Shown here: positions 44,641 to 62,479 of the stretch, piece by piece | Layout: each line of letters begins with the position of its first letter | How positions within the stretch are numbered: position 1 is the first letter of the stretch | Program-made: the position numbers and the translations under genes | NCBI RefSeq assembly: GCF_004214815.1 | Contig: NZ_CP035926.1 | Location: 744,001 to 808,000 of the forward strand | DNA length: 64,000 nucleotides | Source: Aliarcobacter thereius LMG 24486 | GTDB taxonomy: Bacteria > Campylobacterota > Campylobacteria > Campylobacterales > Arcobacteraceae | Reading direction: 5' to 3' | Notes under the pieces: generated by a model | What the model was told of the DNA's origin: nothing | Seen by the model: only the letters and a program-made list of their open reading frames with translations | Databases searched by the model: none

Positions 44641-44781
44641 TTATTAGTCTTTCTTTAAAAATAGTCTTAATTATACTTAAGCATATTTAAAAATTTAGTT
44701 AAGTTAAAGTAAATAAAATTTTACTATTTAAGTTTAACTTTACAAAATATTATATATTATAAAAATCTAATTAGTTCATAG

Positions 44782-44802
44782 ACCATAGGTTATGGTTTGA
44801 CA
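44782..44802 (+). promoter_or_regulatory. Palindrome abutting a -35-like box upstream of the transglutaminase gene
   Basis: ACCATA-GGT-TATGGT (44782-44796) is immediately followed by TTGACA (44797-44802). A palindrome touching a -35 is a usual place for an activator. A convincing -10 was not seen, so the promoter is tentative. The rest of 44641-44864 is AT-rich and shows no gene. Confidence 0.4.
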
Positions 44803-44864
44803 TAAAGAGAGCTTTTACCTTTCTTTTATCTCTTAATAGAACAAAATACTACAAAGAATATATT

Positions 44865-45959: not shown

Positions 45960-46282
45960 GAAAAGATAGTTTAGTGATAATTGGAGCAGTTTTAACTGCT
46001 CTTTTATCAACACTTTGTTGTCTTCCAGCATTAATATTTATATTTTTTGGAGTATCAAGTGGATTTTTAAGTTTTTTTACAACTTTAGAATATACTAGAA
46101 TTCCATTTGCTATTTTATCAATTATATTTTTTTTGATATCAATTTATCATTTTAATAAAAAAATATCATGTAGTTGTAATAAAAGAGCTAGATTCAAAAG
46201 TTATATATTAGTTTTAATATTTCTTATATTAATCTTATTATTACTTTTTTATCCAGAGATTTTACCACTTTTTATGGAGTAA
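45956..46282 (+). CDS. MerT-like membrane metal transporter
   Basis: A 108-residue inner-membrane protein with three hydrophobic segments. The vicinal pair Cys21-Cys22 in the first segment (STLCCLPALIF) is the MerT metal-entry site, and a CSC pair near residue 72 lies in the cytoplasmic loop, as in MerT. MerT carries Hg2+ inward, but similar proteins in organisms without mercury reductase may carry copper or other soft metals; no merA or merR is seen here. It is followed 2 bases later by the HMA protein. Confidence 0.75.
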   Translation: MRKDSLVIIGAVLTALLSTLCCLPALIFIFFGVSSGFLSFFTTLEYTRIPFAILSIIFFLISIYHFNKKISCSCNKRARFKSYILVLIFLILILLLLFYPEILPLFME

Positions 46283-46284
46283 AT

Positions 46285-46563
46285 ATGAGAGTTTTATTTC
46301 TATTTTTTATGTTTTTAAATATTGTTTTTTCTTCACAAATAACAGTTTTTAAAGTTGAAGGAATGCATTGCCCTTTGTGTACGACAGCTGTTAAACAAGC
46401 TATTTTAAAACTTGAGGGAGTTAAAAAAGTAAGTGCTAGACTTAACACTAAAAAAGTGAGCGTTATTTATAATGAAAAAGTAAAAATAGAAGATATATTA
46501 AAAGCAATTAAAACAACTTCATATGAAGGAGTTGAACTAAGTACTCATAAATATGAAGAGTAA
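46285..46563 (+). CDS. Periplasmic heavy-metal-binding HMA protein (MerP-like)
   Basis: A 92-residue exported protein: signal peptide (residues 1-17), then one HMA domain with GMHCPLC (Cys29, Cys32) and the typical second half (LEGVKKVSARLNTKKVSVIYNEKVKIEDILKAIK). It binds a soft metal ion and would pass it to the MerT-like partner just upstream. Whether the metal is mercury, copper or silver cannot be told. It ends the three-gene cluster and is convergent with the XRE regulator gene, 4 bases away. Confidence 0.85.
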   Translation: MRVLFLFFMFLNIVFSSQITVFKVEGMHCPLCTTAVKQAILKLEGVKKVSARLNTKKVSVIYNEKVKIEDILKAIKTTSYEGVELSTHKYEE

Positions 46564-46567
46564 AAAG

Positions 46568-46831
46568 CTATTTTATTATTTCATCAGTATCTTCAAAAAT
46601 ATCATTTATTGATACTTCTAAAATAGAACAAATTTTAAAAATATGTTCTAAATTGAATTTTTTACCATATTTATAAATTTCAGCTTTTGCTATATGACCT
46701 ACTGAGTCATATCCCATAGCATTTGCAAGTTTTAATTGACTAAAGCCTTTTTTCATTCTAGCATTTTTAATATTTTCACCAATTTTTTTATAAAAAAGTT
46801 CTATTTTTTCATCGTTATTATAAATTTTCAA
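46568..46831 (-). CDS. XRE-family HTH regulator
   Basis: An 87-residue DNA-binding protein. The helix-turn-helix covers residues ~17-70 (IGENIKNARMKKGFSQLKLANAMGYDSVGHIAKAEIYKYGKKFNLEHIFKICSILEVSINDIF). The start is TTG at 46831; no in-frame ATG precedes the HTH. The start region overlaps AATGTTCC, half of the 18-bp palindrome at 46888-46905, so autoregulation is likely. It is divergent from the TonB receptor gene across a 200-bp control region. The ligand, if any, is unknown. Confidence 0.8.
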   Translation of the reverse strand: MKIYNNDEKIELFYKKIGENIKNARMKKGFSQLKLANAMGYDSVGHIAKAEIYKYGKKFNLEHIFKICSILEVSINDIFEDTDEIIK

Positions 46832-46887
46832 TAATGTTCCATAGGTATAAGTTTAATTTAATTCTATAAAAGATAATATTTGCTTTC

Positions 46888-46905
46888 AATGTTCCTAGGA
46901 ACATT
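46888..46905. promoter_or_regulatory. Perfect 18-bp palindrome, candidate XRE operator
   Basis: AATGTTCCTAGGAACATT is its own reverse complement. The half-site AATGTTCC occurs again at 46833-46840 at the start of the XRE gene. The two sites flank the likely XRE promoter, which fits autorepression. Confidence 0.65.
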
Positions 46906-46945
46906 ATTGTTGCTTGTATTGTATTGGAATAATTATTGTATTAAT

Positions 46946-46960
46946 TGCAACTAAGTTGCA
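46946..46960. promoter_or_regulatory. First TGCAAC-N3-GTTGCA palindrome upstream of the TonB receptor
   Basis: TGCAAC-TAA-GTTGCA has perfect 6-bp arms. The same core recurs 48 bp downstream with longer arms. Two copies in one short control region suggest sites for a single dimeric regulator that I cannot name. Confidence 0.6.
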
Positions 46961-46965
46961 TTAAA

Positions 46966-46984
46966 GATAATGATTATTATAATT
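46966..46984. promoter_or_regulatory. Fur-box-like site
   Basis: GATAATGATTATTATAATT matches the 19-bp Fur consensus at 15 positions by my count. It lies 46 bases before the TonB receptor start. Iron control of the receptor is likely, and the site also contains -10-like sequence (TATTAT, TATAAT). Confidence 0.6.
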
Positions 46985-46989
46985 TCAAC

Positions 46990-47010
46990 AAATGCAACTA
47001 GGTTGCATTT
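46990..47010. promoter_or_regulatory. Second TGCAAC-N3-GTTGCA palindrome, 9-bp arms
   Basis: The arms AAATGCAAC (46990-46998) and GTTGCATTT (47002-47010) are perfect around a central TAG. It lies between the Fur-like box and the AAGGAG ribosome site, so binding here would block transcription. Confidence 0.6.
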
Positions 47011-47029
47011 AAATATATAAGGAGAAAAA

Positions 47030-49128
47030 ATGGATATAAAGTTGGCAATAAGTGTTGCTATCTTATTTTTTGGGAATCTATTAAGTGCAGAAGAGATTAC
47101 AAAATTGGATGAAATAAATGTAATGGAGAAACTTGAAGTTGAATCTCAATTAGGAAAAGAGCTAACAGTTGGTTCAAAACTTGGATTAACTATCAAAGAA
47201 ACACCTGCAAGTGTAGAAGTAATATCATCTAAATCTATGGAAGAAAGAGGGGATAGTACAGTTATACAAGCTGTTTCAAAGGCAGTTGGAATACAAGGAG
47301 GAGAGTCTGGACATGGTTCTAGTGGTAATATGCATCAAGAGGATTTGTTGGTTATCCTGGGCTTACTTTTTTAAATGATGGTATAAAAACAAATAGTTCG
47401 GTATTTTTAAATAGAGGACTTGATATTGCAAACTTAGACAGAATAGAGATTATAAAAGGAGTTAGTTCTATTTTAAATGGAGAAAGTAGTATTGGAGGAA
47501 GTGTAAATTTAATTACAAAAAAACCAAGCTTTATAGAAGAAGATACGGAGTTTGGTTTAAATATTGGAACTTATGATAATTATAGATTTAAACTTGGTGT
47601 TGGTCAAATTGCAATTGAAGACAAATTGGCATATAGATTAGATGTAAGTAGTAGAAAAAAAGCTTCAAATATTGAAGGTGAAAAAAGAGACATAGATTCA
47701 ATTAGCACTTCAATACTTTATAAAATAAATGATGATTTATTAACTACTATTTCATTTGATAGAGTAGTTGATGATGGCAAAAATGTATATATAGGTACAC
47801 CTTTAATTGATGGTAAATTAGATAAGAGAGTAAGAAAAGTAAATTATAATGTATATGAAGATAATTTGGATAAAGGAGATAGTACTAATATAAAATATGA
47901 GTTGGAGTATTTTCCTACAACAAATTTAGAAATAAAAAATTTACTATATTATCAAAATCATAAAGCAGAAGCTATAAGACCATATAGAGCTGTTCAAGTT
48001 GGAAATAATGTTCAAATAAATGGTACTGATTTACTTGATACTCAAAAAGTCTTAGGAAATAGATTTGATGTTTTAAATAAAGCTAAGCTTTTTGGATTTG
48101 AGAATAGATTTTTAGTAGGATTTGATATTTCAACTATAAATTCTAAAAGAGATATGACAAGTAGCTGGGCAACAAGTAATTATCTTATAGATATCTATAA
48201 TCCAAATAAGGTTATATTTGGAGATACAGGCGGTATTTATAGAACAAAAAATATCGAAGCAGATATAAATCAATATGCTATTTATTTAGAAGATCAGTTT
48301 AGTATAAGTGATAAGTTAAAACTTGTAGCTGGATTAAGACACGATACTATTGATGTAAAATGGAATTATTTTCAAGAGAATCAAAAAAAAGATAGAACTT
48401 ATAATGAGTTTTCATATAGAACTGCTTTAGTTTATGATTTGACTTCTTCAACAACTTTATATGCTACTTATTCAGAATCATTTGAAAATGGTGGTAGTGG
48501 TTTAGCTAATTTGAATTCAAAATATACAGATTTAGATTTAACAGAAGCAAAGCAGTATGAAGTTGGTATAAAATCATCATTTCTTGAAAATAAGGCAGAA
48601 TTAGCTTTAAGTGCATATAAAATAGAGAAAAATAATATGTATGTAGTTGACCCAAATAATGCAAATAATACATTACCTGTTGGTAAAATGTCATCAAAAG
48701 GTTTTGAACTAAGTTTTGGATTTAATCCTATTGAAGAATTGAAAATAGATGCAAATTTAGCATATACAGATGCAAAATATGATGAATTTATTGATGGAAC
48801 AAATAATCTTACTGGAAAAACTCCTAACTCAGTACCAAAATATATAGCAAATTTAGGAATTAGATATATGCCTATTTCAAATTTAGGTATTGGAACATGG
48901 CTTAGATATGTTGATTCAATTTATGCAGATGATAAAAATAGTATAAAACTTCCTTCATATACTGTTGCTGATTTAACTTTAGATTATACATATAATAAAA
49001 ATACAAGATTTAACTTTATTGTAAAAAATATTACTAATGAACTATATGCAACAAGTAGTAAAAATAGAGCAGAAGTATTTTTAGGTGATGCTAGAAGTTT
49101 TGAATTTGGTGTAAATTATAAATTTTAA
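47030..49128 (+). pseudogene. TonB-dependent outer-membrane receptor, frameshifted
   Basis: Two frames join into one receptor of about 699 residues. The first (47030-47374) has a strong AAGGAG site, a signal peptide, and the plug start (TVGSKLGLTIKETPASVEVISSKSM). One base is missing near 47335 (CATCAAGAGGATTT). In the other frame the plug continues RGFVGYPGLTFLNDGIKT through IEIIKGVSSILNGESSIGGSVNLITKKP and the barrel to GDARSFEFGVNYKF at 49128. The plug style is that of siderophore receptors. The single frameshift in an otherwise intact gene means a very recent lesion or a sequencing error. No homopolymer explains phase variation. It should import an iron or other metal complex. Confidence 0.85.
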
Positions 49129-49144
49129 AATAAAAGGATAATAA

Positions 49145-49903
49145 ATGATTAAAAAATTAAGTTTAGTATTAGTGGCAAGTACAGTTTTAGTAGTAAAAAG
49201 TTTTGCTCATGATTTTTGGGTTGATGGATACAATAGTTCAACATTTAAAGCAATTTTAGGATACGGGCATGAATTTCCATATCCAGAAAAAATATCAAAA
49301 GATAAATTAAATAATTTTGAAGCTTTAGTTTTAATAGATAAAAATATGAAATCTAATACTTTAAAACAATCTGGTGAAAATTATCAATATGTTTATAACA
49401 AAGCATTAGATGATGGAACATATATTTTAAAAGGAACATATAAACCAACTTTTTGGACAAAAACAAAAGATAATAAATGGCATATGGGGAAAACAAAAAA
49501 AGATTTAGAAAACTCTCAATATTGTGAAGAGTATTCAAGTTTTGCAAAAAATATTATAAATATTGGAGATGATAATAGTGAAATTTCAACAAATATAATA
49601 GGTCAAAAATTAGAAATATTACTTTTAGAAAATCCATCTACTTTTAAAGTAGGTACTCCTTTTAAAGTAAAAGTTTTACTTGATGGAAAACCAGCTAAGA
49701 AAATAGATGTAAAAGGTACTTTTGATGGTTTTGGAGAAAATAAATTTGCTTTTTATGGAACAACTGATTTAAAAGGAGAGATTGAAATTACTGCTTTAAA
49801 ATCTGGAAAATGGATTTTGATGGTAAAAAATAAAGAGCTATATAAAAATGATAGTTGTGATGAAGTAGTTTACTCTTCTAGTTTGACTTTTATAATAAAA
49901 TAA
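49145..49903 (+). CDS. DUF4198 periplasmic protein, likely metal uptake accessory
   Basis: A 252-residue exported protein (signal peptide to about Ala21; mature start HDFWVDG). This opening and the C-terminal carboxypeptidase-regulatory-like beta domain (FKVGTPFKVKVLLDGKPAKKIDVKGTF...GEIEITALKSGKWILMVK) are typical of DUF4198, often found beside TonB receptors and nickel/cobalt transporters. Two Cys are in the mature part. It follows the receptor gene by 16 bases with an AAGGA site, so it is under the same control region. The metal is inferred from context only. Confidence 0.8.
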   Translation: MIKKLSLVLVASTVLVVKSFAHDFWVDGYNSSTFKAILGYGHEFPYPEKISKDKLNNFEALVLIDKNMKSNTLKQSGENYQYVYNKALDDGTYILKGTYKPTFWTKTKDNKWHMGKTKKDLENSQYCEEYSSFAKNIINIGDDNSEISTNIIGQKLEILLLENPSTFKVGTPFKVKVLLDGKPAKKIDVKGTFDGFGENKFAFYGTTDLKGEIEITALKSGKWILMVKNKELYKNDSCDEVVYSSSLTFIIK

Positions 49904-49910
49904 ATAACTT

Positions 49911-49935
49911 ATCTAGCAAAAATATTTTGCTAGAT
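49911..49935. terminator. Hairpin between DUF4198 and Nramp-like genes
   Basis: The arms ATCTAGCAAAA (49911-49921) and TTTTGCTAGAT (49925-49935) pair perfectly over 11 bp. It lies between two convergent genes and probably acts in both directions, although no strong T-run follows. Confidence 0.65.
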
Positions 49936-49943
49936 AGTATAAA

Positions 49944-51203
49944 TTAAATACCTAAAATAGATGGAAACCATCTATAAATAATAAATAAAATCAAAAATCC
50001 AAATAAAAACAATAGACCTAAAATAGATAATATATTTATGAATTTACCAGTTTGAAGCTCTTTTGGAAGTTTTGTGCTTCTTACAAGTTTATAATTTAGA
50101 AATGCAAAAATTGGTGTTGTTGAAAATGATAATATCATTGCAAAATCTAGCATAGCTCTCATAGAACTTGTAAAGAAGAATATTATTAAACAACCAATAA
50201 TACTAATAAATAGTGTCCAAATAGCAACACTTTTATTACTAGCAGATTTTTTACTTTTTATTAAAGAGAAAGCTTCAGCAACTGCTCTTCCATATCCATC
50301 AATAACAGTTATTGAAGTTCCAAACATACAAGCAAAAGCAATAAATGCTATTAAAAGTCTTGACCAATCACCAATAACACTTGTGTACATAGTTACAAGT
50401 TGATGAGAAAATGCTATTCCATCTTTAAACTCATAAGCACTACCATGTAAAACTAATGTACCAAGAGCCAAAAAGAATATTGCTAAAATAGCAGTTCCTA
50501 TAAATCCAACATTAAAATCCAAAATAGCATTTTTTGAGTTTATATTTGTCTCTTTTATCTGATTTTTTAACCAAATAGAGCTAATACTTGATATCTCAAT
50601 AGGTGCTGGCATCCAACCAGTTAGAATAACAATAAATCCTAAACTAGCAAGTGTCCAAGGAGATGGAGATATAAAATCATCAACTATATTTGAATTTGCT
50701 TCTTGAACAACAGCCATTGAAACAGCAATTATTGTTGCTAAACTCAAAGAGATCATAATTATTTTTGAAACATTATTTAAAAGATTATATTTTCCTGCAA
50801 TTAAAATTAATAGACAAGCAACAATTATTATTAAACTTAAAAGCTTTATAGTTAATTGTATAGGAATAAAATATCCAAGTAAACTTGCAGCAAACATAGA
50901 AACAGCTGCTGTATTTACAACAGCAGCAATTACAGCTAAAACGGTAAATAACCATAACCAAGCATTTCCTAAAGAAGCATAACCTTCAATTAAACTCTTT
51001 TTTGTAGCCATTGTATATTGAACATTTGCCAAAAAGAATGGATATTTTAAGAAATTTACAGCAAGTATAAATATTGCTAAACTCCAACCAAATAAAGCTC
51101 CTGCTTGAGTTGAAGCTACTAAATGTGAACCACCAATTGCAGCAGTTGCCATCAAAATTCCAGGTCCAAATATTTTATAAGTATTTTTTATACGATTAAT
51201 CAT
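49944..51203 (-). CDS. Divergent Nramp-family (SLC11-like) transporter
   Basis: A 419-residue inner-membrane protein with about 11 membrane segments. The start GPGILMATAAIGGSHLVASTQAGALFGW is the Nramp TM1 region, but the metal-binding DPGN is replaced by GGSH. The TM6 motif, normally MPHN, reads GWMPAPIEISS. Both metal-site halves are therefore altered, and the substrate may not be Mn2+ or Fe2+. The gene overlaps the response-regulator gene by 8 bases and closes the operon of binding protein, kinase and regulator, so it is probably the output of that signalling system. Confidence 0.8.
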   Translation of the reverse strand: MINRIKNTYKIFGPGILMATAAIGGSHLVASTQAGALFGWSLAIFILAVNFLKYPFFLANVQYTMATKKSLIEGYASLGNAWLWLFTVLAVIAAVVNTAAVSMFAASLLGYFIPIQLTIKLLSLIIIVACLLILIAGKYNLLNNVSKIIMISLSLATIIAVSMAVVQEANSNIVDDFISPSPWTLASLGFIVILTGWMPAPIEISSISSIWLKNQIKETNINSKNAILDFNVGFIGTAILAIFFLALGTLVLHGSAYEFKDGIAFSHQLVTMYTSVIGDWSRLLIAFIAFACMFGTSITVIDGYGRAVAEAFSLIKSKKSASNKSVAIWTLFISIIGCLIIFFFTSSMRAMLDFAMILSFSTTPIFAFLNYKLVRSTKLPKELQTGKFINILSILGLLFLFGFLILFIIYRWFPSILGI

Positions 51204-51852
51204 TTAAGCTCTTTTCATCAAATTTATAAGTTTTGTGTGCGATTTTTGTTAATATATTTTTATCTGCTAAATCTTTAAATAGTTTTATTAATGTTGGTTT
51301 TGAGATAGAAAATTGTTCCATGATTTCAGTATATGAAGCACAAAAATGATTATTTTCATCTAAGTTATTAAATATATATTTTACTATTTCAACTTGTTTA
51401 TTATCACAAATTATACCAATTGTTTTTATTATATTTTGGTTTCTTTTTATCTCATCTTCTTGAATCTTTGGAAGAAGTAAATCATGTAAAGTATTTAAAA
51501 GTTCATCAATTTCTATTGGTTTTATAATATAGTTTTCAACTTTTAGTTTAATTGCTTCAAGCAAATAAACCGTATCTGTATGAGCAGTTGTTAATATTGT
51601 AGGTATAAATATGTTTTTATTTTTAAGATATTTTAGAAAATTTATACCATTTTCATTTTTGAGTAGAATATCACTTATTATAACATCAACTTTTTTTTCT
51701 AATACTATTTTCATAGCATCAACACTATTTTGAACAGCATAAATATTATCTACAAAATCTTCTAAAATATCTTTTGTATGTCTTAATAAATCTTCATCAT
51801 CTTCTAAATATAAAATATTAAAATTCTTTAATATCTCTAAATCTCTTTCCAA
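51196..51852 (-). CDS. Two-component response regulator with C-terminal winged helix
   Basis: A 218-residue regulator. The receiver domain has the acidic pocket Asp18-Asp19 (YLEDDED), the phospho-acceptor Asp61 (IISDILLKNENG), Thr near residue 89 and Lys111 (YIIKPIEID). Residues ~140-215 form a winged-helix-like region (YTEIMEQFSISKPTLIKLFKDLADKNILTKIAHKTYKFDE), not the usual OmpR or NarL output. It overlaps the kinase gene by 16 bases and the Nramp-like gene by 8. The likely target is its own operon. Confidence 0.85.
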   Translation of the reverse strand: MERDLEILKNFNILYLEDDEDLLRHTKDILEDFVDNIYAVQNSVDAMKIVLEKKVDVIISDILLKNENGINFLKYLKNKNIFIPTILTTAHTDTVYLLEAIKLKVENYIIKPIEIDELLNTLHDLLLPKIQEDEIKRNQNIIKTIGIICDNKQVEIVKYIFNNLDENNHFCASYTEIMEQFSISKPTLIKLFKDLADKNILTKIAHKTYKFDEKSLND

Positions 51853-53420
51853 CTTTTCTCCTCTTCTATTGGTAGTTTTATTGTAAATGAAGTAAAAATG
51901 TACTCATTTTCTTTATAAAATCGATTAATATTCTTACAAATTATCTTACCTTTTAAATGTTTATCAACAATCATTTTTGACATATAAAGTCCAATTCCTG
52001 TACCTGCACTTTTATATTTTGTAGTAAAATAAGGTTCAAAAATTTTTGGTAAAACTTCTTTTGGAACGCCACCACCATTGTCTAAAATATTGATTATTAG
52101 GTATTTTTTATAAGCTTTTGTAATAATTTTGATTATTCTATCATCTTTATTTTCTAAGCTAGCTAAAGCATCTTTAGAATTTGACAAAATATTTAAAATT
52201 ACATGAGAAAGTTCATTATAATAGCTATACAACTCAATATTTTGTTTTATATTTAACTCAATTTTGATATTTTCTTTATATAAAGAGTATTTTGAAAGTT
52301 CAATAGATTGTAAAATACAATCTTCTATAAAAAATCTTATTTTTTGTCTATTTGGATCAAAAAAGTTTTTAAAATCATCAAGAGTATTTGACATATTTTG
52401 TGCTAAAAGTAGGGCATCTTTTGTTTTTTGTTCTATAAAATCATCTGTTAATTTATTTAATTTTTGTTTTGTTCTAAAACTTTGAATAATCATAGATATA
52501 CTTCCCAAAGGTTGTCTCCATTGGTGTGCAATATTGTTTAACATTTCACCAAGACTTGCCAACCTTGCTTGTTGAAACATAATAATATCTTTTTTTCTAT
52601 TTTTAGCAACTTCTTGAGATATTTTTAACTCCAAAGAACTGTTTAACTCTTTTAACTCTTTTGTTTTATCTTCAACAATTTTTTCTTGAACAGTATTAAC
52701 ATTTTTAAAATGCCTTGTAATAAAAAATGATAATAAAATTGTAAAAAATAGAACTAAAAATATAGATATAAATGAAAATATCAAAATAGTATTAAATATT
52801 TTATCTGTATCTCTTTTTTCATTTATTGCTAAAATTAAATCATAATTAATTAAACTTGATAAAAAAATATCTATCTCATTTATATCAAAATTGATATTTT
52901 TGAAATAATCTTTATCACTATTTGCTTCAAGCATATCTATTTTCTTAAAAATTGATAGATAAAGATTATCTATATTTACAATTAAACTATTTTTTAGAAT
53001 TTCATTTTTATAATAAGCTTGTTCGCTTATTATAAAATCTTTTATAAAAGTAATTACAAAAAATCTATTTTTATTTCTAAAGCCAATTTTATACTCTGAG
53101 TAGTTTTTTTCTATAATCTCTTTTGCTAAAACTAAAACTTCTAAAGATTGTTCATATTCTAAATCTTTATCTTGAAAATCTTGAAGAGTACTTTGAATAT
53201 TTATTCTAAAAGTATCTTTTATTGTTTCTAATTTACTTAAACTTTTTGTTCTAATATCAAATAAAGTATCAAAATCATCTTTTAAAACAAATAGAGATAA
53301 TTGAGATAAAAATATAATACAAAACATTCCACCTGCAATAATAAATACTAAAAAATTTGCTTTATAACTATATTTTAAACTTGAAAAGTAGTCTAAAAGA
53401 ATATTAAAATATCTTTTCAT
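51837..53420 (-). CDS. Membrane sensor histidine kinase
   Basis: A 527-residue kinase. TM1 covers residues ~22-45, a helical periplasmic sensor runs to about 210, and TM2 covers ~211-233. A coiled coil leads to the phospho-acceptor His299 (MLNNIAHQWRQPLG). The ATPase domain has the N box (HVILNILSNSKDAL), G1 (ILDNGGGVP), F box (FEPYFTTKY) and G2 (GTGIGLYMSK). The periplasmic part is not PAS or Cache by eye. Its ATG abuts the stop of the binding-protein gene, so the binding protein is a likely sensory partner. Confidence 0.9.
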   Translation of the reverse strand: MKRYFNILLDYFSSLKYSYKANFLVFIIAGGMFCIIFLSQLSLFVLKDDFDTLFDIRTKSLSKLETIKDTFRINIQSTLQDFQDKDLEYEQSLEVLVLAKEIIEKNYSEYKIGFRNKNRFFVITFIKDFIISEQAYYKNEILKNSLIVNIDNLYLSIFKKIDMLEANSDKDYFKNINFDINEIDIFLSSLINYDLILAINEKRDTDKIFNTILIFSFISIFLVLFFTILLSFFITRHFKNVNTVQEKIVEDKTKELKELNSSLELKISQEVAKNRKKDIIMFQQARLASLGEMLNNIAHQWRQPLGSISMIIQSFRTKQKLNKLTDDFIEQKTKDALLLAQNMSNTLDDFKNFFDPNRQKIRFFIEDCILQSIELSKYSLYKENIKIELNIKQNIELYSYYNELSHVILNILSNSKDALASLENKDDRIIKIITKAYKKYLIINILDNGGGVPKEVLPKIFEPYFTTKYKSAGTGIGLYMSKMIVDKHLKGKIICKNINRFYKENEYIFTSFTIKLPIEEEKSWKEI

Positions 53421-54530
53421 TTAATTAATTTCAATAAAATTATTATCTAAATACTTGAAAAGATATACTTTCTTTTCTAAACCATTGCAATCTCTGTTTT
53501 TTAAAGATTTATATATTTTTTTCAATGAAAGATGATTTATATTCTCTTTAATTGCATTTACTAAAGCTTTTGAAGCTAGAAATGCTTCAAAAGATAAGAA
53601 ACTTAACTCTTTATTTATAGCATAATTTTTTATTATATTTTGATACTCTTTTGCTAGTTCAATATTCTCATCTAAATAGTTTGGAACAACTTGAGAGAAA
53701 ATTAGATTTGAAGTATCAATATCTTTATCTTTTAACTCTTTTACTATTGAATTAGCGTCACTAAAAGAGATATTACAAAATATTGTATCTTTAAATTCTT
53801 CACTATTTTTTGCTTTTTGTATAAATAGAGCATTTGCTTTGTATGAACCTATTAAAAAAACTGTTTGAGGTCTTTCTTCTTTTATCTTATTAAATGCTAA
53901 ATTTATTGCTAAAGTATTTCTGGTGTATGTACCAAAGCTAGATGGATTTAATTTATTCTTATTTAAAGCTTTTAAAAATGATATATAACCTTCTTCTCCA
54001 TACTCATCATTTTGATAAAAAATAGCAATATTTTGATGCTTTTTTTCTTTTACAATATAATTAACTAAACTATTTATCTCATCTTCATATGAAGTTCTAA
54101 AATTTAAAATTGTAGAAAAATTATTATCTCTTAAAAATGATGCACCAGAAAATGGAGCAAATAAAAATGAATTATTTTCATTTATTATTGGAATTGCTCT
54201 TTTAACAGTTGGAGTACCAACCATTGCAAAAAGAAGAAATGTATCAGGATTTGAAAGAAGTAAAGAGATATTCTCTTCTGTTAAATCAGGTTCATATTTA
54301 TCATCTAAAGTTACAAATTCTAATTTTCTATTATTTAATAAATTATTTTGATTTATATAAGAAAAGTAGGCATCAATACTATTTTTTGCTCCTTCTCCCC
54401 AAGGTTTCATAATACCACTTAAAGGCATTGAAGATGAAATAACAATACTCTCATTTGTATATCTATTTTGAGATAAGTAGATAAATAGTATAAATAAAAT
54501 AAAAATTGATATTATAGATTTTTTTAGCAT
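53421..54530 (-). CDS. Membrane-anchored LIV-type periplasmic binding protein
   Basis: A 369-residue type-I periplasmic binding protein. One N-terminal hydrophobic anchor (residues ~5-20) has no lipobox, so it should stay tethered to the inner membrane. The fold is recognisable: IVISSSMPLSGIMKPWGEGAKNSIDAYFSYIN, then AMVGTPTVKRAIPIINENNSFLFAPFSGASFLRD and IAIFYQNDEYGEEGY. Relatives bind branched-chain amino acids, amides or urea. No ABC permease or ATPase genes are nearby; the operon continues with a kinase, so sensing rather than transport is the likely job. Confidence 0.85.
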   Translation of the reverse strand: MLKKSIISIFILFILFIYLSQNRYTNESIVISSSMPLSGIMKPWGEGAKNSIDAYFSYINQNNLLNNRKLEFVTLDDKYEPDLTEENISLLLSNPDTFLLFAMVGTPTVKRAIPIINENNSFLFAPFSGASFLRDNNFSTILNFRTSYEDEINSLVNYIVKEKKHQNIAIFYQNDEYGEEGYISFLKALNKNKLNPSSFGTYTRNTLAINLAFNKIKEERPQTVFLIGSYKANALFIQKAKNSEEFKDTIFCNISFSDANSIVKELKDKDIDTSNLIFSQVVPNYLDENIELAKEYQNIIKNYAINKELSFLSFEAFLASKALVNAIKENINHLSLKKIYKSLKNRDCNGLEKKVYLFKYLDNNFIEIN

Positions 54531-54682
54531 TTGAAATATTACTCAAATAGCTATTAAAATAAAATAGTGTAAAAACGAGACATTATAGTATGAGAATTTT
54601 AGATATTAAGTTTCAATTAATCTTATTGTATATAAAATATGGTAAAATATTTTTTACTAAAGACAAATTAAGGGCATAGTTT

Positions 54683-56362
54683 ATGCAAGAATATATATAT
54701 TTTAATAAAGCTGGGTTGGATTTCCCATTGAGTGAAAAAATCCAAGTTGCTACAACTCTTGAGGAATTAAAAGATAATAATTTTCTAATTTCAAATACTA
54801 ATGAAGTTAAAAGCGAAGCTATCGCAAATGAGATAGATTTTTATATTAAAAATTCAAAAGATAATTTATCTTCAAAAATTGAAAATGTACTAAAACTTTA
54901 TGAAATAAATGCTACAAAATTTGATTTTGCACAAGATTTAGATCAAAGTATAAATATTTCAAACTCACTTATGATTGTTTATGACAATTTAGAAGATTTT
55001 AAAGATTTTACAAAAGATATAAATGCGAATGAATTTGATTTATATAAAGTTGAATCAAAACTTATAAAAAAGATTAAAAATAGTGTTGGAAATTTTGATG
55101 TTATTGTTGATGCTGGAGATAAAGATATAGTTTTAAAAGTATCTCAAATAGTTTGGTTTGATGAAAAATTAGATAAAAAAAGAGCAGGAATTTATGATCC
55201 AAACATCTCTAGTATAGAAGAAACTCTAAAAACTATTAGAAAAAATCTAAATGGGTATAATTTTAGAAAAACTATATTATATGATAAATCAATTTGTCAA
55301 TATCATGAAAGAAAAGATGAGATATGTTCTAAATGTGTTGAAGTTTGCCCAACAAATACTATAACAAAAGATGAAGATAATAGAAGATTAGTTTTTGATT
55401 TAGTAAATTGTATTACATGTGGAGAGTGTGTAAGTGCCTGTCCAAGTGGTTCATTAAATAGTGGAGCTTTTACAAAAGATAGTTTATATGAGCTTTCATC
55501 ATTTTATAAAAATACAAAACCTCTTATAATATCTTCAAAATCAGATATTAAGAATCTAAATATAGATATAAAAGAGGGAGTTTTACCACTTTGTATAGTT
55601 GGTGATATTTTTGATGAATCAGTTTTTTTAACATACCTTCAAATAAGCTCTTCTCAAATAGTATATTTTTCAAATGATATATCAAAAGGTACAAAAGAGA
55701 GTATAGAGATTGTAAATGATATTTATATGAAAAAATATGGAAAACTTGCTGTTTATTTGGTTTCAAATGAAAAAGAGTTAAAAGAAGCATTGGAAAAACA
55801 AGAATTTATAGAAAACTCTTATTATAATTTTAATCAAAGTGGAATGAGAAAAAGAGAGATTTTCTCTCAAAGATTACAAAAACTTGTTGCAAATGATGAT
55901 TTAGGTATTGTTAAAACAGGAGAAAATATTCATTATGGAAGAGTTCTTGTAAACGAATCAAATTGTACATTATGTTTGTCATGTGTTGGAGCATGTAATG
56001 TTGATGCACTTTTTGCAAATGAAGCTGATTTTTCTCTTAGAATAAATCCTAGTTTATGTACAGCATGTGGATATTGTGAAATAGTATGTCCTGAAAATGA
56101 CTGTTTAACTATAAAACAAGATGAAATTGAGTTAAATCCAAATTGGTTTAAAGAGACAATTTTAGCTCAAGATAAGCTATTTGCATGTCTTGAGTGTGGT
56201 AAAGAGTTTGCAACAACAAAAGCTATTGAGAAAATAGCTCTTATGATGGAACCAATTTTTAAAACACAAAGTGCTGCAAAAGTGAGAAGTTTGTATTGCT
56301 GTGCTGATTGTAAGCCGAAAATTATGATAAAAGAGGAGATGAGTAAAAATGCAAAATATTGA
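54683..56362 (+). CDS. Polyferredoxin-like 4Fe-4S protein of the formate dehydrogenase operon
   Basis: A 559-residue cytosolic iron-sulfur protein. Cys clusters fall in two groups: residues ~210-255 (CSKCVEVCPTN, CITCGECVSACPSG) and ~430-475 (CTLCLSCVGACN, CTACGYCEIVCPEND), giving four likely [4Fe-4S] sites. A C-terminal zinc-ribbon-like pair (CLECGKEF...YCCADCK) ends it. There is no Tat or Sec signal. It overlaps the TorD-like gene by 14 bases and heads the fdh operon. It may supply electrons or assist cofactor assembly; the exact role in Campylobacterota is not known to me. Confidence 0.8.
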   Translation: MQEYIYFNKAGLDFPLSEKIQVATTLEELKDNNFLISNTNEVKSEAIANEIDFYIKNSKDNLSSKIENVLKLYEINATKFDFAQDLDQSINISNSLMIVYDNLEDFKDFTKDINANEFDLYKVESKLIKKIKNSVGNFDVIVDAGDKDIVLKVSQIVWFDEKLDKKRAGIYDPNISSIEETLKTIRKNLNGYNFRKTILYDKSICQYHERKDEICSKCVEVCPTNTITKDEDNRRLVFDLVNCITCGECVSACPSGSLNSGAFTKDSLYELSSFYKNTKPLIISSKSDIKNLNIDIKEGVLPLCIVGDIFDESVFLTYLQISSSQIVYFSNDISKGTKESIEIVNDIYMKKYGKLAVYLVSNEKELKEALEKQEFIENSYYNFNQSGMRKREIFSQRLQKLVANDDLGIVKTGENIHYGRVLVNESNCTLCLSCVGACNVDALFANEADFSLRINPSLCTACGYCEIVCPENDCLTIKQDEIELNPNWFKETILAQDKLFACLECGKEFATTKAIEKIALMMEPIFKTQSAAKVRSLYCCADCKPKIMIKEEMSKNAKY

Positions 56363-56945
56363 GATAGACAAAGCTAGAATGTTCATATACAATCTTTTAT
56401 CACTTATGTTTGTTGAAGAGTATTCTAAAACAAAAGTTGATGAGATTATTTCAAGTTTAGAGGTTTTAAGTAAAAATTCTTTTAGTCCTATCGTGGAAGA
56501 AGCATCTTTAGAAATCTTAAAAGTAATAAAAGAAAAAGGCAAAGAAGAAGTTTATAAAGAGTATCAAGAACTTTTTTTAATACCTTTTGGAACTTTTATT
56601 CCACTTAGTGTTTCGTGGTATCACGAACAAAGAGAAGGTGGGATTATGCAGTTAAAAGTAAAAGATGTTTTAGGTAAAACAAAAATAAGAAGAGATGAAA
56701 AAACTTTTACAGCACAAGAGGATCATTTAGGTTTTATATTTACTTTAAGTGCTTATTTAATAGAAAAACAAATTGTTGGTGAACTTGAAGAGAATTTACA
56801 AAAAGAGCTTTTTGATGAAGTTATAAAACTTCATTTAGATAAATTTTTCTTTAAATTAATGGGGAGTAATTTCCCTATATATTCAAAACTTGCTCTAATT
56901 TTAGAGAGTTTTTATGGATTTGAAAAGGCATATTTAGAGAGTTGA
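56349..56945 (+). CDS. TorD/DmsD-type chaperone for the formate dehydrogenase
   Basis: A 198-residue all-helical protein of the TorD family, which binds the Tat signal of a molybdoenzyme and holds it until the cofactor is loaded. Family features are ARMFIYNLLSLMFVEEYS at the N-terminus, YKEYQELFLIPFGTFIPLSVSWYHE and the conserved EDHLGFIFTLSAYLI. Its client should be FdhA, encoded three genes on. The start ATG lies within the end of the polyferredoxin gene. Confidence 0.85.
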   Translation: MQNIEIDKARMFIYNLLSLMFVEEYSKTKVDEIISSLEVLSKNSFSPIVEEASLEILKVIKEKGKEEVYKEYQELFLIPFGTFIPLSVSWYHEQREGGIMQLKVKDVLGKTKIRRDEKTFTAQEDHLGFIFTLSAYLIEKQIVGELEENLQKELFDEVIKLHLDKFFFKLMGSNFPIYSKLALILESFYGFEKAYLES

Positions 56946-57024: not shown

Positions 57025-57249
57025 ATGGCTGATGAATTAGAACAACGAAGACAATTTATCAAAAGAGCTGGTATAGCTGCTACTGTTTTAGCTGGAAGTG
57101 TTGTTGCAACTGCTGCAACTACTGAAAGACAAGATAGAGGTGCTAACAGTGATAAAGGTAACGGTGTAGTTGTAGGAAGATCTAATAAAAAAGAGATCTT
57201 ATACAAAAAAAGTTTAGCTTGGAATGAATTTTATAACTCAGCTAATTAA
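57025..57249 (+). CDS. FdhX-type small Tat-targeted formate dehydrogenase protein
   Basis: A 74-residue protein that is mostly a twin-arginine signal (RRQFIKRAGIAATVLAGSVVATAA) plus a short tail (KKEILYKKSLAWNEFYNSAN). This matches the short 'formate dehydrogenase region TAT target' family that precedes fdhA in many Campylobacterota. The strong AAGGAG site and the position just before fdhA suggest high expression with the enzyme. Its role is not established; it may guide Tat export of the FdhAB complex or be a small subunit. Confidence 0.85.
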   Translation: MADELEQRRQFIKRAGIAATVLAGSVVATAATTERQDRGANSDKGNGVVVGRSNKKEILYKKSLAWNEFYNSAN

Positions 57250-57277: not shown

Positions 57278-60079
57278 ATGGGAGCAAATAGCTTTGGTAG
57301 AAGAACATTTCTTAAAATGGCTTCACTAGCAACAGCTTTTACTGCTACATCTGCTTTTGCAAATACAAATAAAGTACTAAGAGATGCAACAGAAGAGGAA
57401 GTAAGAAATCCTTTTCCTGGTTCAAAATTAGTAAAATCAATTTGTACACACTGCTCAGTAGGATGTGGAGTTATTGCTGAAGTTCAAAATGGTGTATGGG
57501 TAAGACAAGAGGTAGCTCAGGATCACCCAATTAGTAGAGGAGGTCACTGTTGTAAGGGTGCTGATATGATTGATAAAATCAGATCAACAAATAGATTACA
57601 ATACCCAACAGAAAAAATTGCTGGAAAATGGAACAGAGTATCTTGGGATGATGCAATGTCAAAAATTTCTGATAAGTTGCTTGAATTAAGGGAAAAATTT
57701 GGACCAGATTCTGTAATGTTCCTAGGATCAGCAAAAACTAGTAATGAGCAAGGATATTATATTAAAAAATTTGTTTCAATGTTTGGAACAAATAATATAG
57801 ATCATCAAGCAAGAATCTGACATAGCCCAACAGTTGCCGGTGTGGCAAATACATTTGGATATGGTGCTATGACAAATCACTTAGGTGATATGCACAAATC
57901 TAAGGCTATTATTATTATTGGAGCAAATCCAGCTGATAATCATCCAGTTGCTATGCAACATATCTTAAAAGGTAAAGAACAAAATGGTGCAAAAATCATT
58001 GTTGTTGATCCAAGATATACAAAAACTGCTGCTAAATCTGATCTATATTGTAGAATTAGAACAGGAACTGATATTGCATTTTTATATGGAATGATTAGAC
58101 TTATAAAAGTAAATAATTGGTACGATAAAAAATATTTAAAAGATAGAGTTTATGGTGTTGAAGAGATATTTAAAGAGTGTGAACAATATACTCCTGAGCA
58201 TGTTGAACATATTACAGGTCTTCCAAAAGAGACTTTAATTCAAGCTGCAACACTTTATGCAAGTGCAGAACCTGGATGTTTAATTTGGAATCAAGGTTGG
58301 ACACAACACACTATTGGATCATCTAATACAAGACTTGGGTCAATTATGCAATTAATCCTTGGAAATGTTGGAAAAGCTGGTGGTGGATGTAATATTTTAA
58401 GAGGACACGATAATGTTCAAGGTGGAACTGATATTGGTTGTTTATCTGATACATTACCAGGATATTATGGTCTTGCTGAAGGTTCATGGAAATATTTTGC
58501 TAGACAATGGAAAGTTGACTATGAATGGTTAAAAGGAAGATTTAAAACAAAAGAGATGATGGAAGCAAAAGGGAACTCTCTTTCATTATTTGCTGATGGA
58601 GTTTTAAAAGAAGAAAATGCTCAATACAATGGTGGAACATCAATTAAAGCTCTAGTTTGTATTGGAAATGGTATATCAACAGTTACAGATGTTAAAAGAA
58701 TTAAAGATGCATTAGATAAATTAGATTTAGTTGTATTTATTGATCCTTATGTAAATGATGCTGCTGTTATAACTTCAAGAACAGATAATTTATTTTTACT
58801 TCCAGCAGCTTCACAAGTTGAAACTAGTGGAACAGTTGTAAATACAGGAAGAAGTGCACAATGGAGATCAAAAGTTGTTGAACCACTTTTTGAAGCAAGA
58901 ACAGATCATGAAATATTATTTGATTTTGCAAAAAGAATGGGATTTTATAATGAATTAGTTGCAGGTATGGGTAAAGGAAATGAATTCAAATGGCCAGAAG
59001 ATGCAACAGATGAAATTGCAAGAGCACTAAAAACTATTGGTATGACAGGTGTAACTGCAGAAAGAATTAAAAAACAACAAGAGAATTGGCATTTATTTAA
59101 TCCTACTACACTTTTAGGAGCAGGTGAATTCAGTAAAGAATACTATGGTTTACCATGGCCTTGTTGGAGTGTAACTCACCCAGGAAGTCCAGTATTGTAT
59201 AATACAGATTTACCTGTAAGTCAAGGTGGTATGGGATTTAGAGCAAACTTTGGATTAGAAAGAGAAGGAGTTAGTTTATTAGCAGCAGATGGAAGTTATC
59301 CAAAAGGTTCAAAAATTAAAGGTGGATATGCAGAAATCACATCAGAAAATATTGAAGCTTTAGCTGGAATTAAATTAACAGCAAAAGAAAAAGAGTTAGT
59401 AAAAGGTACAAACTGGAAAACTGATGATAGTGGAATTTTAGTAAAATATGCACTTGAAGCTGGACTTGTTCCTTATGGAAATGCAAGAGCTAGAACTGTT
59501 GTTTGGTCAGGATTTATTGATCCAATACCAAAACATAGAGAACCTTTACACTCATTTAGACCAGATTTAATTGATAAATATCCAGCAAGTGCTGATAAGA
59601 AAAATCATTTTAGAGTAAATCTTCCTTATAGAAGTAGACAAATACAACAAACTTGGGTAAATGATTATCCAATTAATATTGTTTCAGGAAGAGTTGTTGA
59701 GCATATGGGAACAGGAACTGAAACTAGATCTAGTAAATACTTAGCTGAGTTAAGTCCTGAAATGTATGGTGAGCTTCATCCAAATTTAGCTGCTAAACTA
59801 GGAATTAAAAATGGTGAAATGATGTGGGTATATGGTACAAATGGTGGAAAAATCAAGATTAAATGTAAAATAAGTTTAAGAGTTGATGAAACTTCAGTAT
59901 TTTTACCTCAAAACTTCTCTGGATGGTGGAGTGGAGAAAATCTACTGTATAGATACCCAGAAGGAACACAACCATATGCAATGGGTGAAAACTCAACTCA
60001 AGTTACAAGTTATGGATTTGATCAACAAACAGCTTGTCCAGAAACAAAATGTTCGCTTGTACGAATAGAGAAAGCATAA
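57278..60079 (+). CDS. fdhA: Formate dehydrogenase catalytic subunit, selenocysteine-containing
   Basis: Oxidises formate to CO2 in the periplasm at a molybdenum or tungsten bis-pterin centre. One 933-residue protein is read through the in-frame TGA at 57818-57820 as selenocysteine (residue 181): the context DHQARI-Sec-HSPTVAG is the classical FDH active site. A Tat signal (GRRTFLK, Arg8-Arg9) leads, and Cys56, Cys59, Cys63 and Cys91 hold a [4Fe-4S] cluster. Molybdopterin domains continue to a molydopterin-binding C-terminus (VSGRVVEHMGTGTETR). A bSECIS-type hairpin follows the TGA. GGAGGA precedes the ATG. It is part of FdhABC. Confidence 0.96.
57818..57850 (+). promoter_or_regulatory. Sec UGA codon with bacterial SECIS hairpin
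   Basis: After the TGA (57818-57820) a stem TTGCC (57834-57838) / GGCAA (57844-57848) encloses the loop GGTGT. SelB recognises a G-G-U loop in the E. coli fdhF element, at a similar distance from the UGA. This supports recoding and argues against a nonsense mutation. Confidence 0.85.
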
Positions 60080-60089
60080 GGAGTTAACT

Positions 60090-60683
60090 ATGAGTAATAA
60101 AGTAGATTTTTCAAGTATGAAGTTTTATTGTGATGAAAATCTTTGTATTAATTGTAATGGGTGTGTAGTTGCTTGTAAAGAAGCACACGAAGTACCAGTT
60201 GGAGTTAATAGAAGAAAAGTAGTTACAATAAATGAAGGTGTTATTGGACAAGAATATTCAATATCTATGGCTTGTATGCATTGTGATGATGCACCTTGCC
60301 AACAAGTATGTCCAACAGATTGTTTTTATATTAGAACAGATGGAATTGTTTTACATGATAAAGATAAGTGTATAGGTTGTGGATATTGCTTATTTGCTTG
60401 TCCATTTGGAGCACCACAATTTCCACAAGATGGAGCATTTGGTACAAAAGGTAAAATGGACAAATGTACAATGTGTGCAGGAGGTCCTGAAGAGACAAAT
60501 TCACCAGAAGAGTTCCATAAATATGGACAAAATAGAATTAGTGAAGGTAAAGTTCCTATGTGTGCTTCTATGTGTTCAACAAAAGCTCTTCTTGTAGGTG
60601 ATGCGAATGAAGTTGCTTTAATTAAAACATATAGAGCAATAAATAAAGGTAAAGGTATAGCAACGCCTTCATATGGTTGGTAA
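60090..60683 (+). CDS. fdhB: Formate dehydrogenase iron-sulfur subunit
   Basis: A 197-residue ferredoxin-type subunit that carries electrons from FdhA to the cytochrome b subunit. Four Cys groups give four [4Fe-4S] clusters: CINCNGCVVACKE, CMHCDDAPCQQVCPTDC, CIGCGYCLFACPFG and CTMCAG with CASMCSTKAL. It has no signal of its own and is probably exported with FdhA by the Tat route. It starts 10 bases after fdhA with AAGGAG. The full set of sites and operon position make the call firm. Confidence 0.95.
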   Translation: MSNKVDFSSMKFYCDENLCINCNGCVVACKEAHEVPVGVNRRKVVTINEGVIGQEYSISMACMHCDDAPCQQVCPTDCFYIRTDGIVLHDKDKCIGCGYCLFACPFGAPQFPQDGAFGTKGKMDKCTMCAGGPEETNSPEEFHKYGQNRISEGKVPMCASMCSTKALLVGDANEVALIKTYRAINKGKGIATPSYGW

Positions 60684-60692
60684 GGATAATTT

Positions 60693-61649
60693 ATGAAAAA
60701 TAGCTCATTTTTTGAAAAAAATAAAGCCTATATTTATACCCTTTTAGGACTATCAGTTGTTGGTGGAGTTTTTGTTGGATTTTTAATGGTAATTGATTGG
60801 GAATATCTAATTAAATATACTTTTCATATACTAACAGGTGGAAATATTGATGGTATATTAGTTCCAGCAGAAACACACTACCAAGAGATGGTAAATAGAG
60901 CTTTTGGACCAAATTATGGAGCAATAGCACCTGAAATTATTAGAGCTAGTAATGAAAGACAACTTTATATATGGTGGGTTTTTGTAGCTGAAATTGCGAT
61001 TTTCTGCTTTATGTATGCTTTCTATGGAAGAAAAGAAGCTATTGTTACAAATCCAAATGATCAAGTGGAAGTATTTTCACTTGTTCATAGAGCTATAATT
61101 TGGTTAAATGTAATTATTATTATTGCTTTAATTATTACAGGGTTTAATATAACTTGGAGTTTGAGAAGTGAAGGTGGATATATTCCATATATATTAAGAG
61201 GAACACATGAAGTTACAGGAATACTATGGTTTCCATTTTGGTTAATGATGAGTATAATAGCTTTTAAGGATTTAAAAATATTATCAAAAAATAGCCTTAT
61301 TCATAAAATAGTTTTAGCTGGAAAACATACACCTATGAAAAGAATTATCTTTATAGTTTTTGTTGCTATGGGTGGTGGATTACTTCTTAGTGGATTTTTA
61401 ATATGGTTTATTCATCCAGATGCATATACAAATGCTCAATTTATTCAATTTAAAAGAGCACTTTTATATCTGCATTTTGGAGCTAGTGTACTAATTATGT
61501 TCTTTTTACTTGATTTTGTATATTCAAGTTTAGTTGCTGTAAAAGGTAATTTTAAAGGTTTAATTACAGGAAAATATCCAAGAGAATATTTAGAGCAAAT
61601 TGCTCCTGATATTTTAGAAGATATTTCTACAAAAGAAGCAAAAAAATGA
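60693..61649 (+). CDS. fdhC: Formate dehydrogenase cytochrome b subunit
   Basis: A 318-residue inner-membrane subunit that binds haem b and reduces quinone. Membrane segments are seen near residues 15-38, 90-112, 135-155, 175-195, 220-245 and 265-285. Candidate haem His residues lie in VHRAIIWLN, RGTHEVTGILWF and LLYLHFGASV, as in FDH gamma subunits. The N-terminus is longer than in E. coli FdnI, with an extra membrane span typical of Campylobacterota. Its stop overlaps the fdhD start by 4 bases. Confidence 0.9.
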   Translation: MKNSSFFEKNKAYIYTLLGLSVVGGVFVGFLMVIDWEYLIKYTFHILTGGNIDGILVPAETHYQEMVNRAFGPNYGAIAPEIIRASNERQLYIWWVFVAEIAIFCFMYAFYGRKEAIVTNPNDQVEVFSLVHRAIIWLNVIIIIALIITGFNITWSLRSEGGYIPYILRGTHEVTGILWFPFWLMMSIIAFKDLKILSKNSLIHKIVLAGKHTPMKRIIFIVFVAMGGGLLLSGFLIWFIHPDAYTNAQFIQFKRALLYLHFGASVLIMFFLLDFVYSSLVAVKGNFKGLITGKYPREYLEQIAPDILEDISTKEAKK

Positions 61650-62479
61650 ATAATTTTTTAGGTTCAGAGGCATTTGCCTCAACCTTTTTTAAAAAAGATA
61701 ATAATTCAAAGACAATTATTGTAGAAAAATTTCTTGAAAATAGTTTTGAGAGTTTTGAAGATTTTGTTATAAAAGATGAAAAAATAGATTTTTATTTAAA
61801 TGGTGAAAAATTAATATCTGTAATGACAATAAAAGAGCATCAAGATGCACATATTATTGGTTTTTTATTAAGTGAAGCAGTGATTTCTAATATTAATGAT
61901 ATAAAATCATTAAAAATCAGTGAAGATGGTTTAAGCGTTTTTGTAGAAGCCGATATATCAAATTTGGCATATGAAAACTTATTTAAACAAAAAACTTTGA
62001 CTTCAGGCTGTTGTGTTGGAGTTACAGGAAATGCTGATAAAGTTTTTGACTGCTCATTTATAAGTACAAATTTTAAATTAAAATCTATAAAAATTTTGGA
62101 ACAAATGAGTGAATTTAATAAATCTTCAAAGCTCTTTGACCAAACAGGTTGTGTTCATAAAGCAAGAATAGTTTTAGAAGATGAAACTATTTATGAAGCT
62201 GAAGATATAGGAAGGCACAATGCAATTGACAAAGTAATTGGTCTTGCAACTATTGCAAGGAAAGATTTAAAAAAATCAATTTTGTATGTAACTGGAAGAT
62301 TATCAAATGAGATGGTTGTAAAATGTGTTATGCATAAAATTCCAATAGTTGTTTCAAAAGCAGCTGTTACTTATGAAGGAATTAAAGCTGCAAATGAACA
62401 TGGAGTTACATTAATTGGTTTTGCAAGAGAGCATAAAATGAATGTATATACTCATAGTGGAAGAGTGAAAGTTGATTAA
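61646..62479 (+). CDS. fdhD: FdhD sulfurtransferase for formate dehydrogenase maturation
   Basis: In E. coli FdhD takes sulfur from the cysteine desulfurase IscS and sulfurates the molybdenum cofactor of formate dehydrogenase. This 277-residue homologue has the family core: HQDAHIIGFLLSEAVI, the active loop TSGCCVGVTG (adjacent Cys122-Cys123 rather than the CxxC seen in some members), TGCVHKARIVLEDE, EDIGRHNAIDKVIG and LYVTGRLSNEMVVKC. It overlaps fdhC by 4 bases and the NifS-like gene by 8 bases, so all three are translationally linked. Confidence 0.94.
   Translation: MNNFLGSEAFASTFFKKDNNSKTIIVEKFLENSFESFEDFVIKDEKIDFYLNGEKLISVMTIKEHQDAHIIGFLLSEAVISNINDIKSLKISEDGLSVFVEADISNLAYENLFKQKTLTSGCCVGVTGNADKVFDCSFISTNFKLKSIKILEQMSEFNKSSKLFDQTGCVHKARIVLEDETIYEAEDIGRHNAIDKVIGLATIARKDLKKSILYVTGRLSNEMVVKCVMHKIPIVVSKAAVTYEGIKAANEHGVTLIGFAREHKMNVYTHSGRVKVD

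Follow-up and report, generated by a model that had tools for sequence, protein, structure and literature searches.

The 64,000-nucleotide stretch of the Aliarcobacter thereius LMG 24486 genome analyzed in this study (contig NZ_CP035926.1, positions 744,001 to 808,000 of the forward strand; hereafter the window) carries two divergent operons, one encoding a LIV-type periplasmic binding protein, a sensor histidine kinase and a response regulator, and the other a predicted respiratory formate dehydrogenase (FDH). We favor the reading, at a probability of roughly 0.68, that these three genes form a periplasmic-binding-protein-coupled two-component switch that controls FDH and most likely senses formate, and that a fourth gene behind them, encoding an Nramp-fold transporter, is an accessory. 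The membrane-anchored binding protein would bind its ligand, most likely formate or a close proxy, in the periplasm and, in its liganded form, signal to the kinase at the latter's helical sensor domain. Phosphotransfer from the kinase to the receiver/winged-helix regulator would follow, and the regulator would in turn control the FDH operon from the 152 bp between the two divergent operons. Its regulon probably also takes in selenium-supply genes; we infer this direction of signaling, as well as activation rather than repression. The most economical choice of ligand is formate, since the enzyme consuming it is the constant neighbor of the triad, as a selenocysteine or a cysteine form.

Conservation of the triad with the formate dehydrogenase operon

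Among 104 Arcobacteraceae genomes, the binding protein and the catalytic FDH subunit FdhA were each identified in 74; both occur in 72 genomes, only one of them in four and neither in 28 (72, 2, 2 and 28; Fisher p 1e-20, not corrected for relatedness). The binding protein stands without FdhA in G407 and G449, the latter having an FdhA piece at a contig edge, and FdhA stands without the binding protein in G404 (54% complete) and G175. The two genes lie at most 9 kb apart in 68 of 74 genomes, the six exceptions being G407 and G449, three genomes in which the two genes fall on separate contigs (G403, G186 and G405), and G430, which has a weak match on another contig. Binding-protein and regulator genes are within 3 kb of each other in 69 of 71 same-contig pairs, and the kinase gene directly precedes the regulator gene in 34 of the 36 loci read. 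Binding protein, kinase and regulator are encoded and inherited together, as in a binding-protein-coupled two-component system, and constitute a conserved triad, constantly partnered by the FDH operon and not by the Nramp-like gene. Five genes, one of them ABC-ATPase-like, lie between kinase and regulator in G332, and in G412 the two are split by a second cluster of FDH genes (L175 and L176).

The association extends beyond the family. In a sample of 398 genomes drawn from the order, 53 of 105 binding-protein places outside the Arcobacteraceae lie within 6 kb of a polyferredoxin gene, among the matches listed and with families without a binding-protein match left out. On the same basis, a polyferredoxin gene is found within 6 kb of 46 of the 52 places scoring at least 430 bits, versus 4 of the 48 scoring below 365 bits. 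Several other Campylobacterales families show the same divergent layout of triad and FDH in the loci read. The nearest FdhA is of the Cys type (no TGA codon) in 7 of 68 genomes, and in four of these (G344, G234, G423 and G452) this is the sole FdhA listed; because of these Cys-type enzymes, the triad appears linked to FDH and not to selenium as such. Genes for selD, selA or selB are often found near triad/FDH loci.

Within the window, four minus-strand open reading frames (ORFs) follow one another in the order binding protein (53421..54530, 369 amino acids), kinase (51837..53420, 527 amino acids), regulator (51196..51852, 218 amino acids, TTG start) and transporter (49944..51203, 419 amino acids). 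The initial annotation had described four genes that abut or overlap, with the binding-protein gene directly before the histidine kinase gene, and its coordinates proved exact: the first two genes abut at 53420/53421, the kinase and regulator genes overlap by 16 bp, and the regulator and transporter genes by 8 bp. A terminator-like hairpin (49910-49936, minus strand) closes the operon behind the transporter gene. A DUF4198 protein (49145-49903) and a TonB-dependent receptor-like ORF (47626-49128) are both encoded convergently with the transporter.

The 152 bp at positions 54531-54682 separate the start of the triad operon from the divergent operon on the plus strand, in which genes for catalytic, Fe-S and membrane subunits and for FdhD are found together, and which is predicted from its gene content to encode a respiratory FDH that oxidizes formate. 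Its first gene encodes a polyferredoxin-like 4Fe-4S protein (54683..56362; ORF, Pfam), followed by a TorD/DmsD-type chaperone (56349..56945; Nitrate_red_del, with NCBIfam DmsD below cut-off) and a conserved small ORF of 74 amino acids in an FdhX-like position (57025..57249). FdhA (57278..60079) contains an in-frame TGA at 57818-57820, a probable selenocysteine codon; scored with this TGA read as selenocysteine, it matches the Fdh-alpha model at 1.2e-146, below the strict cut-off of that model. The remaining genes encode FdhB (60090..60683; FDH3_beta, above cut-off), an FdhC-like membrane subunit (60693..61649; gamma models below cut-off) and the sulfurtransferase FdhD (61646..62479; above cut-off).

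Proposed receptor, kinase and regulator

The proposed receptor matches Peripla_BP_6 (Pfam, 3.1e-27), and its structural model (pLDDT 89.9) contains an N-terminal membrane helix at residues 2-21. Cys is absent from the first 35 residues in 30 of 36 orthologs, and a simple A-x-A cleavage pattern was found in none of the 36, with starts taken as called and the result not being proof of anchoring. In a structural search, the nearest solved folds of the model are LIV-type proteins, with 4kv7 first. Together these features bear out the membrane-tethered LIV-type protein proposed in the initial annotation. The accompanying claim that it has no ATP-binding cassette (ABC) partner also holds: no ABC partner genes adjoin the binding-protein gene, and a profile search of the complete host genome (1.92 Mb) detected no LIV-class permease (PF02653), a family matched by the same search in 12 of 14 control genomes. 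With no such permease in the complete genome, the binding protein most likely works solely as a sensor and does not serve an importer. Its fold, which is that of LIV-type importer receptors, suggests that it could remain from an ABC importer or be shared with one; this is extremely improbable, however, given the absence of the permease throughout the genome, the conserved membrane anchor, and the kinase and regulator that always accompany the binding protein in the FDH-type loci read.

The kinase matches HATPase_c and, below threshold, HisKA, and no Pfam match to a receiver or Hpt domain was found in it. Its first 250 residues, which are those covered by the alignment, are modeled as all helix, with long helices in a bundle (pLDDT 81.7), and the protein as a whole reads as two membrane helices flanking a helical periplasmic bundle followed by the kinase core. 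The top two structural matches of this part are designed proteins; chemoreceptor domains, NarQ, KinB and the LytS domain of XylFII-LytS are among the natural matches. For helical bundles, such Z values can come from common arrangement alone. The binding protein is very probably the sensor input of the kinase, as had been proposed from the gene order, a view supported by the co-inheritance of the triad, the lack of a LIV-class permease in the genome and the modeling of the periplasmic part of the kinase as a sensor-type helical bundle. The regulator combines Response_reg with a RepL-like winged-helix output (33.4 bits versus a cut-off of 20.3); RepL is the best Pfam match for the output and HTH_36 a weak one. 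No Pfam match to Trans_reg_C was found, and the output is thus not of the OmpR type.

No description of this system was found in the open-access literature, most subscription journals being outside coverage. Among known systems, TorT-TorS-TorR of Escherichia coli, which serves trimethylamine N-oxide (TMAO) respiration, likewise joins a periplasmic receptor, a helical-sensor kinase and a regulator to a respiratory molybdoenzyme; torR is divergent from torCAD, and TorR is an OmpR-type regulator. The receptor here is instead LIV-type (Peripla_BP_6), the kinase lacks any match to a receiver or Hpt domain, and a RepL-like regulator output and FDH as the enzyme set the system further apart; the TorT and TorR families enter this comparison by description and not by sequence. 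Judged by its anatomy, the triad may work like TorT-TorS-TorR, yet it is not TorTSR, since the receptor class and the regulator output differ. The periplasmic domain of TorS is all-helical and works with TorT and TMAO, as described in excerpts of PMC8534201. TorS chains are not among the structural matches listed for the kinase part, a listing that excludes nothing.

XylFII-LytS is also a pair of binding protein and kinase, and its LytS sensor domain ranks with the best natural structures matched by the kinase part (5xsj_L, Z 13.9, root-mean-square deviation 2.2, 114 aligned, 12% identity); this likeness is structural only, and helical bundles reach such Z by arrangement. In AmiC, the Pseudomonas amide receptor, a LIV fold likewise serves regulation and not import (1qnl, at rank 42 of the structural search); AmiC resides in the cytoplasm, its target is AmiR, and its system has no kinase, unlike the triad. 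In LuxP-LuxQ, too, the signal reaches the kinase by way of a separate periplasmic binding protein (PMC8534201, in part). The LuxQ sensor domain is PDC-type, whereas the one here is helical. BumSR of C. jejuni, with Cj1492c, which we take to be BumS, was considered as kin and dropped, being set apart by description and not by sequence comparison. Cj1492c is presented as a PAS kinase in an excerpt of PMC7011364.

Promoter elements, signal and alternative readings

Two conserved DNA elements precede the FDH operon, either of which could be the site of the regulator. A direct-repeat element (54605..54621, plus strand) reads as an ATTAAG-N5-TTAAT form of TTTAAG-N5-TTTAAG with 3 mismatches, being better in most relatives, and the palindrome GGTAAAATATTTTTTACT (54641..54658, plus strand) has 1 mismatch to GGTAAA-N6-TTTACC. 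Relative to the first FDH start codon, the direct repeat sits 40-65 bp and the palindrome 3-30 bp upstream. With at most 2 mismatches, 43 of 55 triad-adjacent FDH promoters have the repeat at its position and 43 of 55 the palindrome; shuffles of single bases gave 19 of 1100 for the repeat and 4 of 1100 for the palindrome. These 55 promoters come from a set of 56, in which L186 was left out (its start lies beyond the locus edge) and a duplicate FeS piece of L208 was dropped; the counts are partly circular because the consensus was read from these same promoters.

The triad-less, further-copy and paralog sets played no part in choosing the consensus. Over about 300 bp, the palindrome was found in none of 21 FDH promoters of triad-less genomes (best 3 mismatches), and at 12 hand-picked further FDH starts in triad-bearing genomes the palindrome is in place in seven and the repeat in six. 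In five of six paralogous triads, AGTNAA-N6-TTTACT was identified by eye upstream of the binding-protein gene, and such palindrome-like sites favor the palindrome being read by this regulator family. The paralogous triads, which belong to the low-scoring group (L205, L207, L209, L221, L225 and L229), are followed by cyclophilin and P-II genes in all six and by amtB in four of the six, suggesting that the receptor module has been re-used for nitrogen genes.

The palindrome also occurs elsewhere. It precedes a transglutaminase-type gene in 21 of 22 cases, often in the same divergent gap as selD, and a phosphonate-type receptor gene in 5 of 5, compared with 16 of 367 other genes. The complete host genome holds seven matches to GGTAAA-N6-TTTAC, four within ORFs and three intergenic, the latter lying in the FDH promoter, before a Sulf_transp (YedE-like) gene and before a gene for a Cache-domain protein. 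The Sulf_transp gene, possibly of the FdhT type (L239:1652-2845, host ~1904076-1905269), has the palindrome about 134 bp upstream. The Cache_3-Cache_2 sensor gene (L236:1-1485, host ~597010-598494), cut at the locus edge, has it 15 bp before the called start; similar genes in two relatives (L311 and L318) have it 14 and 123 bp upstream, and the protein is a candidate co-regulated chemoreceptor. In 14 regions of relatives chosen by guess, the palindrome lies before a YedE/FdhT-like gene in seven and a Cache-domain gene in two, at selA in two, and elsewhere or in coding sequence in three; one of the two selA palindromes lies inside the called selA ORF.

Near the triad, selD is repeatedly found divergent from the transglutaminase-type gene together with small MerT-like and heavy-metal-domain genes (window ~44001-47500; L157, L190 and L187), with the palindrome in the gap between the two divergent genes, a neighborhood with a possible link to selenium. 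Genes for a phosphonate-type receptor, an ABC ATPase and a fused permease occur near selD and FDH (L167, L169, L173, L164 and L232), and are candidates for an oxyanion importer linked to formate or selenium metabolism.

Several observations weigh against formate-responsive control of FDH by the triad through these elements. The consensus elements were picked by visual inspection of the triad-adjacent promoters, which themselves share ancestry. A repeat-like match with at most 2 mismatches is present somewhere in 6 of the 21 triad-less FDH promoters; one of these, before FDH in G175, has a single mismatch and lies at a different distance. Five of the 12 further FDH starts have no palindrome. 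Loci L212-L215 and L275, which form one family, have the triad and the repeat (at most 1 mismatch) and no palindrome, and the palindrome precedes selD in 24 of 28 cases without the direct repeat; these two patterns raise the possibility that the palindrome belongs to another regulator and that the repeat is the site of this one. On the supporting side, direct repeats at the -35 box are bound by a characterized regulator of Sulfurospirillum, although that regulator is of the OmpR type, according to an excerpt of PMC7755780. Against the reading, G407 keeps the triad without an FdhA match. Proteomics of Sulfurospirillum multivorans showed FdhA2 higher with formate than with pyruvate, and the authors suggest possibly constitutive Fdh2 expression (PMC4585668, in part).

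The triad could control FDH in response to cofactor supply, sensing some form of selenium, molybdenum or tungsten, or to a different cue, in place of formate. This is unlikely, although the palindromes before selD, the phosphonate-type ABC receptor gene and the Sulf_transp gene of the host and of 7 of the 14 hand-picked regions all point toward cofactor supply, as does the frequent proximity of selD, selA or selB. Against it stand the genomes whose nearest or sole listed FdhA lacks the TGA codon, which weaken sensing of selenium only, and the chance that the palindrome is not the site of this regulator. Even less probable is that the triad is a mere neighbor of FDH with targets elsewhere, another factor reading the palindrome at FDH and selenium genes. 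Such a factor would fit the loci with triad and repeat but no palindrome, and paralogous triads with other neighbors exist; it fits poorly with the co-inheritance and adjacency of triad and FDH across families, with the lack of the palindrome in all 21 triad-less FDH promoters and with the palindrome-like sites at the paralogous triads.

The Nramp-fold transporter and a possible wider regulon

The transporter matches Pfam Nramp (PF01566) at 31.7 bits versus a cut-off of 29.8. A weak profile alignment to MntH (E 0.0075) reads GGSH in place of the helix-1 DPGN of MntH and puts GWMPAPIE in helix 6 where MntH has MPH, which agrees with the earlier proposal of an Nramp fold without metal motifs; NCBIfam nevertheless names the protein Nramp_1 (62.9 bits, cut-off 50). 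Non-Slc11 branches of PF01566 (outgroup and NRMT) are described in an excerpt of PMC9606685 as being without the Slc11 helix-1 and helix-6 metal residues. The protein here belongs to the same Pfam family and likewise lacks metal residues, a likeness by description and not by sequence.

Among the 38 sampled Arcobacteraceae genomes with the binding protein, a close transporter copy (>80%) occurs in five, and in all five, as well as in L003, it directly follows the regulator gene. A transporter gene stands behind the regulator in 6 of the 36 triad loci read, five of these six having been fetched for holding it, and any match at all was found in 14 of the 398 genomes, two of them very weak. The closest named match is from an uncultured Aliarcobacter (78%) among the best 80 of 465 loci, and 79 of these 80 are gammaproteobacterial or spirochaete records; no binding-protein, kinase or regulator match was found in the DNA around any of these 79. 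In a midpoint-rooted tree with flagged long branches, Aliarcobacter-type transporters form one clade beside the gammaproteobacterial/spirochaete group, with other Campylobacterales outside, and Vibrio-type relatives stand without the triad. The Nramp-like gene was dropped as a core partner, being confined to some Aliarcobacter-type genomes and found elsewhere without the triad; it is an accessory gene of those genomes, outside the conserved core.

The initial annotation had viewed the four genes as a self-contained unit for both sensing and import, the Nramp-fold protein taking up the ligand sensed by the binding protein. In five of the six loci that have it, the transporter gene begins 8 bp inside the end of the regulator gene (23 bp by called start in the sixth), so the gene is probably co-transcribed with the triad, as its position suggests. 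A joint import function is very unlikely, however: neighborhood comparison revealed that the four-gene set is not generally conserved and that the conserved partner is FDH, the nearest large transporter clade is gammaproteobacterial and without triad genes, G314 keeps a transporter copy with no binding-protein or FdhA match, and none of the 12 regions upstream of Nramp genes contains the palindrome.

In G308 and G332, a relative of the transporter (39-40% identical) is located away from the triad and ends a cluster of ThiM-, ThiD- and ThiE-type genes (Pfam) with a thiamin pyrophosphate (TPP) riboswitch (L183:12665-12770 in G308, L182:3749-3854 in G332), which hints at organic substrates for this branch of PF01566. 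No thiamin genes stand beside the window gene, and a thiamin link was dropped for it. A 5-oxoproline (ycsG-like) context, also considered, was not seen in the clustered loci, whose clusters carry no Pfam annotation.

Formate is a main electron donor of Campylobacterota. We tentatively suggest, as a possibility somewhat short of even odds, that across Campylobacterales families an anchored LIV-type formate receptor drives a regulon of FDH, selenium supply (selD, selA and YedE/FdhT-like genes) and a Cache-domain sensor, that a sister branch has been re-wired to nitrogen genes (P-II and amtB), and that the Nramp-fold protein is a later-acquired, non-metal carrier under the switch. The system would place a LIV-fold receptor at the input of a kinase, and with one receptor, one kinase, one regulator and one promoter with two candidate operators, it makes formate sensing in Campylobacterota directly testable.

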